From NCBI GenBank assembly GCA_025353485.1, contig JANXQO010000054.1, positions 1 through 40,317 of the forward strand: a DNA stretch of 40,317 bases, written 5' to 3'. Below the pieces are notes generated by a model that searched no databases, was not told the origin of the DNA, and was given only the letters and a program-made list of their open reading frames with translations. Shown here piece after piece: positions 21,825 to 37,446 of this stretch. The DNA comes from Chitinophagales bacterium. GTDB lineage: Bacteria; Bacteroidota; Bacteroidia; Chitinophagales; Chitinophagaceae. The first letter of the stretch is position 1. The number at the start of each line of letters is the position of its first letter. The position numbers and the translations under genes are program-made.

Positions 21825-21858
21825 TAGTTTGTAATTTTAGATTGTAGTTTGTGGTTTT
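21825..21858. repeat. Heptamer-like repeats after gcvH
   Basis: TAGTTTG occurs at 21825 and 21845, with TAATTTT and TGGTTTT as neighbours, in steps of 7 apart from one 6-base unit. It starts one base after the gcvH stop codon. Confidence 0.35.
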
Positions 21859-21899
21859 TTTGACACAACCTCATTGAAATAAATAATTACAGAAAGAGA

Positions 21900-22289: not shown

Positions 22290-22297
22290 AACAATAA

Positions 22298-22332
22298 ACA
22301 TCGTACATCCCACTTCTTACATCGCACATCCT
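22298..22332. repeat. ACATCNN heptamer array (5 units)
   Basis: Five units in exact register: four have the form ACATCNN (for example ACATCGT and ACATCGC) and one is ACTTCTT. The array lies between the VanZ-like stop and the promoter of the DUF4290 gene. The same word family occurs at 28534-28568. Confidence 0.7.
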
Positions 22333-24474: not shown

Positions 24475-24516
24475 TAGAGTAGATAAAGTAATGAGTGATA
24501 AGTGATGAGTAATTAG
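24475..24516. repeat. TRATRAG-type heptamer array (6 units)
   Basis: Six units in exact 7-base register, four of them of the form T-R-A-T-x-A-G (for example TAATGAG and TGATAAG). The array begins 5 bases after the murA stop and fills most of the spacer before gmk. Confidence 0.7.
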
Positions 24517-24566
24517 CATGCGCATATTTTTTGTTTCCTATTAATCCCATAAATCCTGGTTCAGAT

Positions 24567-26437: not shown

Positions 26438-26438
26438 T

Positions 26439-26494
26439 CAATAAGTCAATGGTCATTAGTCAATATGTAAGTGAACCAATGACCCAATGACTAA
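26439..26494. repeat. GTCAATG-type heptamer repeats
   Basis: GTCAATG, then GTCATTA, then a further unit lie in exact register at 26445-26465, followed by CCAATGAC twice with a period of 8 (26476-26491). The repeats fill most of the spacer after the CNNM-type gene. Confidence 0.5.
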
Positions 26495-26499
26495 ATAGA

Positions 26500-27880: not shown

Positions 27881-27952
27881 TAAAAGGCAGAGGCAAAAAA
27901 AGAAGTATTTAAAAATGTTCAACAAAAACAATCTCCATATTCTTCTCCATTT

Positions 27953-27982
27953 CCTCCCCCGTCGGGGGAGATAGAGGGGGCT
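27953..27982. repeat. GC-rich palindromic repeat, copy 3 (inverted)
   Basis: A CTCCCCC/GGGGGAG hairpin over GTC with an AGAGGGGGCT right arm. It is the same family and orientation as the element at 11780-11810 and lies 13 bases before the YqeY-like gene. Confidence 0.75.
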
Positions 27983-27995
27983 AAAAAATATTTTT

Positions 27996-28454
27996 ATGGC
28001 ATTAGAAGAAAAAATAATGACAGACCTTAAAGCCGCCATGCTGGCTAAGGATGAAAAATCTTTGCGATCATTAAGGGCTATTAAAGCAGCGATTATAATC
28101 GCCAAAACTGCAGAAGGCGCAGGAGGTATTTTAAAAGAAGAAGATGAAATTAAATTACTTCAAAAGTTAGTTAAGCAAAGAAAAGATTCGTTGGAGATCT
28201 TTGAAAAACAAAACCGCGAAGATCTTGCGCAAAAAGAAAGAGAAGAAATTGAAGTGATAGAAAAATTCCTTCCCAAACAAATAAGCGCTGATGAATTAAA
28301 AATTATTATTGAAGCAATTATAAATGAAACCGGCGCAACCTCTCCCGCTGATATGGGAAAGGTTATGGGTGCTGCCAATAAACAATTAGCGGGCAAAGCA
28401 GATGGCAAAACAATTGCTGCAACGGTTAAGGAATTATTAACTCATGTTCCATAA
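27996..28454 (+). CDS. GatB/YqeY-domain protein
   Basis: This 152-residue protein is the stand-alone YqeY type: LEEKIMTDLKAAMLAKDEKSLRSLRAIKAAI, then EIKLLQKLVKQRKDSLEIFEKQNREDLAQKEREEIEVIEKFLPKQIS and TSPADMGKVMGAANKQLAGKADG. This domain is shared with the C-terminal tRNA-binding end of GatB in the amidotransferase, so a link to tRNA is likely, but the role of free YqeY proteins is not established. It has no signal peptide. It is preceded by a GC-rich palindrome and followed by the long heptamer array. Confidence 0.88.
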   Translation: MALEEKIMTDLKAAMLAKDEKSLRSLRAIKAAIIIAKTAEGAGGILKEEDEIKLLQKLVKQRKDSLEIFEKQNREDLAQKEREEIEVIEKFLPKQISADELKIIIEAIINETGATSPADMGKVMGAANKQLAGKADGKTIAATVKELLTHVP

Positions 28455-28456
28455 AG

Positions 28457-28568
28457 CCAATAGGCAATGGGCAAGGGCCAACAGGTAATGGGCAATAGCA
28501 AATTAAGTCATTGGTCACAGTCATTAAATACTTTTAACATCATACATCTAACATCACACATCGAACAT
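28457..28568. repeat. Heptamer array filling the spacer (16 units)
   Basis: The whole spacer between the YqeY-like stop and the CvpA-like start keeps a 7-base register. Three word types follow each other: CCAATAG/GCAATGG types at 28457-28498, AGTCATT/GTCATTA types near 28506-28526, and CATACAT/CTAACAT types at 28534-28568. The last unit overlaps the CvpA-like ATG. Confidence 0.75.
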
Positions 28569-29103
28569 GATCATCGATATCGCCTTTGTTCTTGTAATAA
28601 TACTTGCCATATTTAAAGGCATAAGTAAAGGCCTGATATTGGGTATTTTTTCACTGCTTGCTTTTATCATCGGGCTTGCTGCAGCGTTAAAATTATCTGT
28701 GGTTGTTGCTGCATATTTAAAAGATAGTGCAGGCTCTTTTATCAAATGGCTTCCCCTTATTTCTTTTATGCTGGTTTTTATCGCAGTTATATTTTTAGTT
28801 GGTCTTTTGGCAAGGCTAATAAAAAAAACAATACAGTTTGCCATGCTTGGCTGGCTGGATAGTTTGGGAGGAATGGTTTTATATGTTGCTATCTACGCAA
28901 TCATCTTTAGTGTTTTTTTATTTTTTGCAAATAATCTTTTTCTTATTCAGCCGACAACCATTCATGATTCTAAAATTTATCCATATGTTGCGCCCTGGGG
29001 CCCCAAAGTGATGGATAATCTTGGAAAGATAATCCCGGTATTTAAAGATATGTTTACACAGTTACAGGATTTCTTTGGTAACCTGGCTAAAAAATCTGCA
29101 TGA
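28567..29103 (+). CDS. CvpA family membrane protein
   Basis: This 178-residue protein has four hydrophobic segments at about residues 1-15, 21-45, 64-85 and 105-125. It starts MIIDIAFVLVIILAIFKGISKGLILGIFSLLAFIIGL, the CvpA-family pattern. CvpA is needed for colicin V production in E. coli and affects envelope stress tolerance elsewhere; the exact role is not known. The C-terminal part (about residues 145-178) is soluble and contains several aromatic residues. The ATG is formed by the last heptamer of the spacer plus the next G. It lies between the YqeY-like gene and the hydrolase gene. Confidence 0.85.
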   Translation: MIIDIAFVLVIILAIFKGISKGLILGIFSLLAFIIGLAAALKLSVVVAAYLKDSAGSFIKWLPLISFMLVFIAVIFLVGLLARLIKKTIQFAMLGWLDSLGGMVLYVAIYAIIFSVFLFFANNLFLIQPTTIHDSKIYPYVAPWGPKVMDNLGKIIPVFKDMFTQLQDFFGNLAKKSA

Positions 29104-37285: not shown

Positions 37286-37300
37286 CAACGTAATATTTGA

Positions 37301-37404
37301 GTCTGATTTGGGTGGATTAAAAAAAGTAGTAAAAAAATGCCAAAATTTTAAATTCTATCCTTAATCCATTTAATCTTATAATCTACCCAAATCAAGGTTC
37401 AGAC
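37301..37404. repeat. 104-bp dispersed inverted-repeat element
   Basis: The left arm 37305-37319 and the right arm 37379-37393 are 15-base reverse complements with one mismatch (GATTTGGGTGGATTA against TAATCTACCCAAATC). Outer ends GTCT and AGAC also pair across an AAGGTTC insert. From memory, a similar ending AATCAAGGTTCAGAC is common in Bacteroidota spacers. It has no coding capacity. Confidence 0.65.
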
Positions 37405-37412
37405 TATTTTAT

Positions 37413-37420
37413 TACTTTTG
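37413..37420 (+). promoter_or_regulatory. Candidate -7 box of uppS
   Basis: TACTTTTG is an exact TAnnTTTG match 42 bases before the uppS ATG. The predicted transcript start falls at the edge of the palindrome at 37425-37446. No -33 TTG is seen. Confidence 0.4.
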
Positions 37421-37424
37421 TTAT

Positions 37425-37446
37425 AAGTCAGGCAATTGCCTGACTT
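37425..37446. promoter_or_regulatory. 22-bp perfect palindrome in the uppS leader
   Basis: The sequence from 37425 to 37446 is its own reverse complement, centred on CAATTG (37433-37438), with GTCAGG and CCTGAC arms. It starts 4 bases after the -7 box and ends 16 bases before the ATG. It could be an operator or a leader hairpin. Confidence 0.5.

Follow-up and report, generated by a model that had tools for sequence, protein, structure and literature searches.

Tandem units of seven bases are found in the spacers of filamentous cyanobacteria (STRR), apparently with words other than those described here. As Mrazek et al. (2007) is cited in PMC4679880 and PMC4692102, heptanucleotides are the commonest unit of long simple sequence repeats (SSRs) in most genomes of one survey, their occurrence is sporadic and polymerase slippage was proposed for them. 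According to the account in PMC4679880, direct repeats of TAACTGA occur in Beggiatoaceae, Cyanobacteria and five Bacteroidetes, in intergenic positions and often beside start codons; in some of these five, the spacers with TAACTGA also hold direct repeats of other heptamers, and heptamers related to TAACTGA are described as rare as direct repeats in the main genome of that paper. The heptamers GGGNATC and GGGGAYT of Xanthomonas and Nostoc, as presented in PMC4692102, are intergenic, some of them in inverted pairs, and vary in length and sequence between close species at the same gene pair. The initial annotation of the present locus knew of no named equivalent in Bacteroidota, a statement contradicted by the TAACTGA repeats reported in some Bacteroidetes (PMC4679880). 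In the open-access literature, no paper was found on a many-word heptamer vocabulary with word replacement in Chitinophagaceae, and the only account of the unit of seven that was met, a polymerase-footprint proposal, is not a tested explanation.

The spacer under study occupies positions 28455-28566 of the window, i.e., the whole 40,317-nt stretch of DNA analysed, between two genes of the + strand:

27996 to 28454, + strand: YqeY-like gene, the 5' neighbour (PF09424, E 3.1e-46)
28455 to 28503, no strand: array A, degenerate heptamers of GGCAATG / GCAATAG type (lag-7 segment score 15.4)
28507 to 28526, no strand: array B, with GTCATTG, GTCACA and GTCATTA as its three units, all of GTCA type, read directly from the sequence
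28536 to 28568, no strand: array C, heptamers of ACATC type (4.7 copies at period 7 in Tandem Repeats Finder)
28567 to 29103, + strand: CvpA / colicin V production-like gene, the 3' neighbour (PF02674, Colicin_V/CvpA, E 1.6e-23)

The coordinates, the flanking genes and the length of 112 bases (16 x 7) given by the initial annotation agree with the sequence and the Pfam matches, and direct reading confirmed both the three word types and the final block that supplies the AT of the CvpA ATG. The nearest named records to the CvpA-like protein are from MAGs (RYN_292, 88% identity; Chersky.15_85, 87%; 65-1, 83%). Over 28457-28568, the lag-7 identity was 0.543 against 0.270 +/- 0.045 in dinucleotide shuffles, and 0.543 was reached by none of 2000 shuffles, whether at lag 7 itself or anywhere in the range of lags 2-29. 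Identity was likewise high at lag 14 (0.500) and lag 21 (0.462), the remaining lags of 1-20 ranging from 0.20 to 0.29, and this stretch had the top lag-7 score among the 112-base stretches of the window. Taken alone, the regions of array A (28457-28505; 0.619, 0/1000 shuffles) and array C (28534-28568; 0.679, 1/1000 shuffles) retained a high lag-7 identity, while that of array B (28506-28533) was not significant, 164 of 1000 shuffles being as high. For array C, Tandem Repeats Finder also reports period 14, from 28535. This array extends into the CvpA ATG, an intergenic position near a start codon like those of TAACTGA repeats. The focal arrays are degenerate, and the long near-perfect copies that characterise heptanucleotide SSRs are absent from the focal spacer. 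Nothing points to a function of the focal array. A plasmid search with the focal spacer plus its edges gave no match, and Rfam gave no match at gathering score over the whole window. The spacer folds only modestly (z of -2.17 here and -0.71 in the congener G007, the closest relative). A search for GTCATTRGTCATTRGTC with at most 2 mismatches was uninformative because the reversed control equalled it (12 matches each).

The three word families had been described as following each other in the same register with no slip. The GTCA units of array B begin at 28507, 28514 and 28520, however, in steps of 7 and then 6, and arrays A and B, only 0.155 identical when compared in the shared frame, reach 0.423 when shifted by one base. 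Between arrays B and C, too, the shared frame has no advantage (0.25, against 0.343 in the best other frame), and arrays A and C peak in frame only barely (0.371 against 0.343). From the 7/6 spacing and the lack of a common phase, it follows that these are three adjacent arrays, each with its own register; the single frame is produced by cutting the sequence into blocks, and the divisibility of 112 by 7 is partly luck, with one chance in seven. The mechanism initially proposed, a single special diversification device working in one 7-base frame through the whole spacer, is thus very improbable: it would account for a spacer length divisible by 7 both here (16 x 7) and in G007 (13 x 7; 91 bases, L054), but the orthologous YqeY-CvpA spacers measure 74 bases in G017 (L053) and 81 in G002 (L055), neither the internal step of 6 nor the separate phases of A-B and B-C fitting such a frame.

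Array C is recognisable in all three of these relatives as in the genome under study, and the array A word is GTCAATG in G007 and G017 where it is GGCAATG in the window. Alignment of the window with the G007 spacer gave a net difference of 21 bases, plus a one-base gap within array B. Because the general layout is kept in four species, the focal copy of array C is probably old and slow. No array was seen by eye in the YqeY-CvpA spacer of the 13 more distant relatives for which it was available in the gene direction (L038, L042-L044, L056-L064).

The search was then extended to about 859 kb of the 3.82-Mb Chitinophagaceae genome (~22%, including the window), in which a rough custom ORF caller delimited 101 kb of spacers. 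These contained 33 period-7 segments against 1.7 in shuffled spacers, with 21 segments at period 14 (1.3 shuffled) and 5 at period 21, while lags 4-6 and 9-13 yielded 3-6 segments. Coding sequence contained 21 period-7 segments in 566 kb (from a 631-kb sample whose ORF cut-offs differ slightly from those of the enlarged sample used for spacers), several of which fall by eye in probable false ORFs. Spacers would tolerate arrays that genes would lose, since a unit of 7 is not divisible by 3. Extrapolation gives roughly 150 period-7 arrays in the whole genome, and the words met include GTCAATG, GTCATTA, ACATCGT, AAACTAC, CACGTTT, GTTATCA, GATTACT and AATTGCC types. A segment scan, together with comparison to relatives, placed three further arrays in the window:

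21825 to 21859, no strand: TAGTTTG-type array (reverse complement of the AAACTAC type), from the segment scan
22290 to 22330, no strand: a further ACATCGT-type array, kept in G007 with the same spacer length of 48
24487 to 24518, no strand: AGTAATG/AGTGATA-type array, kept in G007 with the same spacer length of 61

For the first of them, whose spacer is 76 bases long, no array was scored in the orthologous spacers of G007, G017 and G002 (15, 17 and 83 bases).

The signal was also present in G361, a Chitinophagaceae relative with a 7.3-Mb single contig, of which 10 stretches totalling 200 kb were sampled, 3 of them placed on ACATCGT matches. Its 27 kb of spacers contained 44 period-7 segments against 0.0 in shuffled spacers, with 33 at period 14, 17 at period 21 and only 0-2 at lags 4-6 and 9-13. 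The whole G361 genome may hold more than 1000 arrays, a figure extrapolated from these 44 segments per 200 kb with 3 of the 10 stretches placed on known matches. Three spacers of this genome (L170 12521-13227, L173 11361-11984 and L177 2971-3759) show by eye tandem repeats of about 110-120 bases, the unit of which itself includes a short heptamer array. The lag-7 excess over shuffled spacers, put forward by the initial annotation as a check, holds in the sampled spacers of both genomes.

A mechanism working in 7-base steps had also been suggested. The genome-wide preference for steps of 7 agrees with it, but a process bound to 7 alone is not supported, since period-8 segments were enriched too (16 against 1.7 shuffled in the spacers of the genome under study, and 13 in G361). 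Period-8 arrays overlapped period-7 arrays in 0 of 16 and 1 of 13 cases, respectively, and have words of their own, of AATGTGCG, GTAAGACC and AAAAGTTG types. Examples occur at L170, L172-L174, L177, L016 10450 and L087 1511, some of them being apparently hairpins. As to the units themselves, a constant core with a variable rest was considered and rejected. The first values (69 against 34 and 100 against 46, 0/500) had pointed to phase heterogeneity, a signal that was dropped because one altered unit makes two same-phase mismatches; relative to the array consensus, no excess was left, 912 and 997 of 1000 simulations equalling or exceeding the observation.

Turnover was assessed in 94 pairs of orthologous spacers (43 with G007, 42 with G017 and 9 with G002, some loci being counted once per relative). 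Arrays were present in both species in 11 pairs, in one in 15 and in neither in 68. Among the 11 both-array pairs, two length differences were zero, one was -21, one -28 and seven were not multiples of 7. Multiples of 7 were seen in 2 of the 15 one-array pairs and, among the 68 array-free pairs, in 5 cases of zero and 3 others; a smaller run with looser anchors (67 pairs) gave multiples, including zero, in 5/22 array pairs and 3/45 others. Strains had been expected to differ by whole 7-base units; the focal spacer differs from that of G007 by 21 bases, but length differences of orthologous array spacers are not reliably in steps of 7, as 7 of the 11 both-array pairs show. The words themselves may be replaced: the near-perfect array at L030 13812 is of GATTACT type in the genome under study and of TTATTTC type in G007 and G017, and the near-perfect array at L018 7529 is of ACATCGT type here and ACTACTC in G017. 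Unit identity over the 11 pairs in which an array could be taken in both species averaged 0.83 within species and 0.66 between species, a comparison biased towards this outcome because arrays were detected by their internal likeness; the case for concerted turnover is accordingly carried by these two loci. Spacers with an array were not longer than their array-free orthologues (medians of 82 and 98 bases, 15 pairs, p 0.55), and simple insertion of arrays is therefore not shown.

Exact word searches recovered the same words in other genomes. GTCAATG arrays were found in 21 of 191 family genomes (17 genera; 4 for the reversed-word control), ACATCGT arrays in 10 of 195 (9 genera; control 0) and GTTATCA arrays in 14 of 296 phylum genomes (control 2). 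Relatives also have near-perfect long arrays, such as the ACATCGT array of G370 (about 17 units) and the GTTATCA array of G048 (about 12). At L154 (near 1500), a GTTATCA array apparently lies within coding sequence, at a likely C-terminal sorting signal, as judged by eye. In G361, about eight ACACCGT units are followed by ACATCGT units, an order that slippage of variant units predicts. The TAACTGA word (as GTTATCA) is also present in the genome under study, at C57:43942, outside the focal spacer. Compared with letter-permuted words, the word-to-word distance gave p 0.05 and 0.02 within the genome under study and 0.14 and 0.08 within G361. Between the two, the distance of 27 words to 25 was only moderately under chance (p 0.013 and 0.017), ACATCGT being excluded on the G361 side as G361 had been selected by that word. 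The arrays are patchily distributed. When one or two stretches were sampled from each of 17 other genomes of the genus, one or more segments turned up in 5 of them; G007 was the richest with 4, and G004, one of the five, is of low complexity. G017 had no segment in these stretches and yet has arrays in others. Among family genomes sampled regardless of word matches (G315, G316, G320, G322, G326, G347, G356, G369, G376, G390 and G404, 10 of the 11 being readable), 4 of the 10 had a segment, and stretches placed on word matches had up to 9 (G460).

Words common to genera beyond their reversed controls could reflect selection. Arrays would then be cis-regulatory or protein-binding sites, on DNA or RNA, comparable to the proposed translational role of TAACTGA, and array C, which abuts the CvpA start codon and is recognisable also in L053-L055, fits this proposal. 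So does a mild excess of arrays in tandem spacers of the genome under study, where they occupy 25 of 314 tandem, 3 of 92 divergent and 2 of 58 convergent spacers. However, all three arrangements bear arrays, G361 shows no tandem excess (20/60 tandem, 5/19 divergent and 6/17 convergent), the words differ between orthologous spacers, and the ACATC word was seen by eye in both orientations relative to genes. We therefore regard regulatory sites kept by selection as an unlikely explanation, and these observations suggest caution before such spacer sequence is called regulatory.

Some arrays are part of hairpins. An inverted partner arm scoring at least 14 was found for 3 of 23 arrays in the genome under study and 7 of 41 in G361, with 0 in both for the controls (shuffled flanks and arrays of other loci). 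The hairpin as a general feature of array spacers was rejected: the fold z of array spacers was lower than that of other spacers in the genome under study (-1.92, n=31, and -1.09, n=60, respectively), yet the two hardly differed in G361 (-1.47, n=32, and -1.26, n=45), and hairpins are thus confined to a minority of arrays. In the window, one such structure has a lag-7 segment score under the threshold of 10 used for arrays:

26438 to 26499, no strand: spacer hairpin (lag-7 score 8.3), the left arm of GTCAATG/GTCATTA words and the right arm of inverted CAATGAC

Both of its arms have other words in G017. Arms were exchanged between species at six loci picked by eye (L018 13449, L017 15849, L030 1914, L022 13905, window 26438 and window 27881). 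Own arms paired better than other-word arms at L018 13449 (own against G007 and G017), at window 26438 (own against G017) and at L017 15849 (own and G007 against G017). At the last locus, native energies of -20.9 (own) and -26.4 kcal/mol (G017) weakened to -9.1 and -6.8 upon exchange, whereas exchange between own and G007 arms, which have the word in common, cost little (-20.6 and -32.3). No consistent loss was seen at L030 1914 and L022 13905, where the words are alike, and exchange between G007 and G017 at L018 13449 (word in common) gave -28.7 and -26.4 against -44.2 and -23.5 for their native arms. Window 26438 also holds an exception, the G017 left arm with the G002 right arm giving -16.0 against -18.2 and -13.0, i.e., no loss. 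In a wider count, 16 of 63 pairs of suitable length (from the 94) had z < -1.8 in both species, and the difference was weak: the mean energy was -21.6 for native and -16.3 for arm-swapped folds in 8 array pairs, as compared with -20.1 and -17.7 in 8 others.

Two readings take such hairpins as their starting point. In one, a word of 7 or 8 bases from a limited vocabulary would be copied along the array and between hairpin arms by template switching in Bacteroidota spacers; we regard this as rather unlikely. Whole hairpins would then switch word between species with fold and position kept, and the three loci at which own arms paired better fit this reading. In the other, arrays would be decayed or active REP- or MITE-like hairpin elements moved by a Y1 transposase, with the heptamers lying within the arms. 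The partner arms absent from controls and the orthologous hairpins with different words in both arms are in line with such elements, as is the detection of Y1_Tnp, which matched 11 of the 12 genomes searched and gave 10 matches in the genome under study. Yet the number of Y1_Tnp matches is 0 in G048, which is rich in TAACTGA arrays, and one in G376, where GTCAATG arrays abound; a strong partner arm is absent from most tested arrays, and array-free orthologous spacers are no shorter, which makes mobile hairpins a distinctly unlikely source. Apart from the arrays, the window carries a palindromic, probably REP-like element at 27911-27997 (CCTCCCCC...GGGGGAG), for which several sites in G002, G007 and G017 give short matches; in the orthologous spacers of these three relatives, heptamer-type arrays stand in place of the palindrome. 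The spacer at 37286-37435 also forms a hairpin (TGGGTGGATTA... / ...TAATCTACCCA), part of it (~37361-37412) matches other sites in relatives, and its length is 150 bases here and 60 in G017.

A fixed step and a limited set of words are also what a reverse transcriptase adding repeats from an RNA template would produce, in a telomerase-like manner. Bacterial repeat synthesis of this kind is reported for DRT10, with a 9-nt unit, in the account of PMC12632851, and the array-rich G361 and G376 have RVT_1 matches. However, RVT_1 gave 0 matches in the array-bearing G000 (the genome under study), G007, G475, G460 and G048, while G001, G316, G322 and G390 also match (6 of 12 genomes in all), and the many words per genome would need as many templates. 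With the enzyme missing in array-bearing genomes, this explanation is largely refuted and scarcely credible, though the RVT_1 cut-off could miss a diverged enzyme.

Taken with the presence of arrays in all gene arrangements, the RT and Y1 findings make it simplest to suppose that units are duplicated and turned over by slippage. Period-7 segments are enriched and concentrated in spacers, words recur over loci and genera, orthologous sites carry different words, and some relatives have long perfect arrays. In our view, the arrays are probably degenerate tandem repeats of heptanucleotides, mostly functionless, with slippage or unequal exchange behind both their origin and their turnover. A 7-base unit would be duplicated into an array; it would grow, shrink and be homogenised unit by unit through replication slippage or unequal exchange; and point mutation would degenerate it and shift its word. 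Where an inverted second arm exists, template switching may in addition copy the word from arm to arm. The focal spacer would then be three short, worn, adjacent arrays within a genome-wide population of degenerate period-7 arrays, also present in some other Chitinophagaceae. Several observations stand against slippage as the whole explanation. Pure slippage predicts random words, yet ACATCGT, GTCAATG and GTTATCA are common to several genera; only 4 of the 11 both-array length differences are multiples of 7, two of them being zero; and both the separate period-8 population and the mild tandem-spacer excess fit it poorly. Besides, the unit length of 7 follows from nothing computed here. With array-rich genomes beside others with few or none in the sampled stretches, and words common to genera, this patchy family offers a comparative test of slippage, template switching and selection.

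This kind of heptamer repeat is already known; what is new is the number of shared words per genome, their species-specific replacement and the few co-changed hairpin arms. Like the long heptanucleotide SSRs of prokaryotes as described in the sources above, the arrays consist of 7-base tandem units beyond chance, both at the focal spacer (0/2000 shuffles) and over the genome (33 against 1.7), but they are short, degenerate, built from many words per genome and different in word at orthologous sites. Because the focal arrays are degenerate and perfect ones are found elsewhere in the family, we classify them as a variant and not as plain members of that class. With the TAACTGA repeats, as far as PMC4679880 describes them, they share the heptamer unit, the intergenic location and the proximity to a start codon, and the same word exists elsewhere in the genome; the focal words, of GGCAATG, GTCATTA and ACATC types, are different, and here many words form arrays. 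The heptamers of Xanthomonas and Nostoc appear in PMC4692102 as G-rich, possibly quadruplex-forming and of one word family per genus, whereas those reported here are AT-rich and of many words. Finally, the (GATAGRA)n satellite of Chloroflexus aurantiacus, in the description of PMC6749651, likewise forms dispersed heptamer-built arrays, with one word in one species where the present genomes use many.
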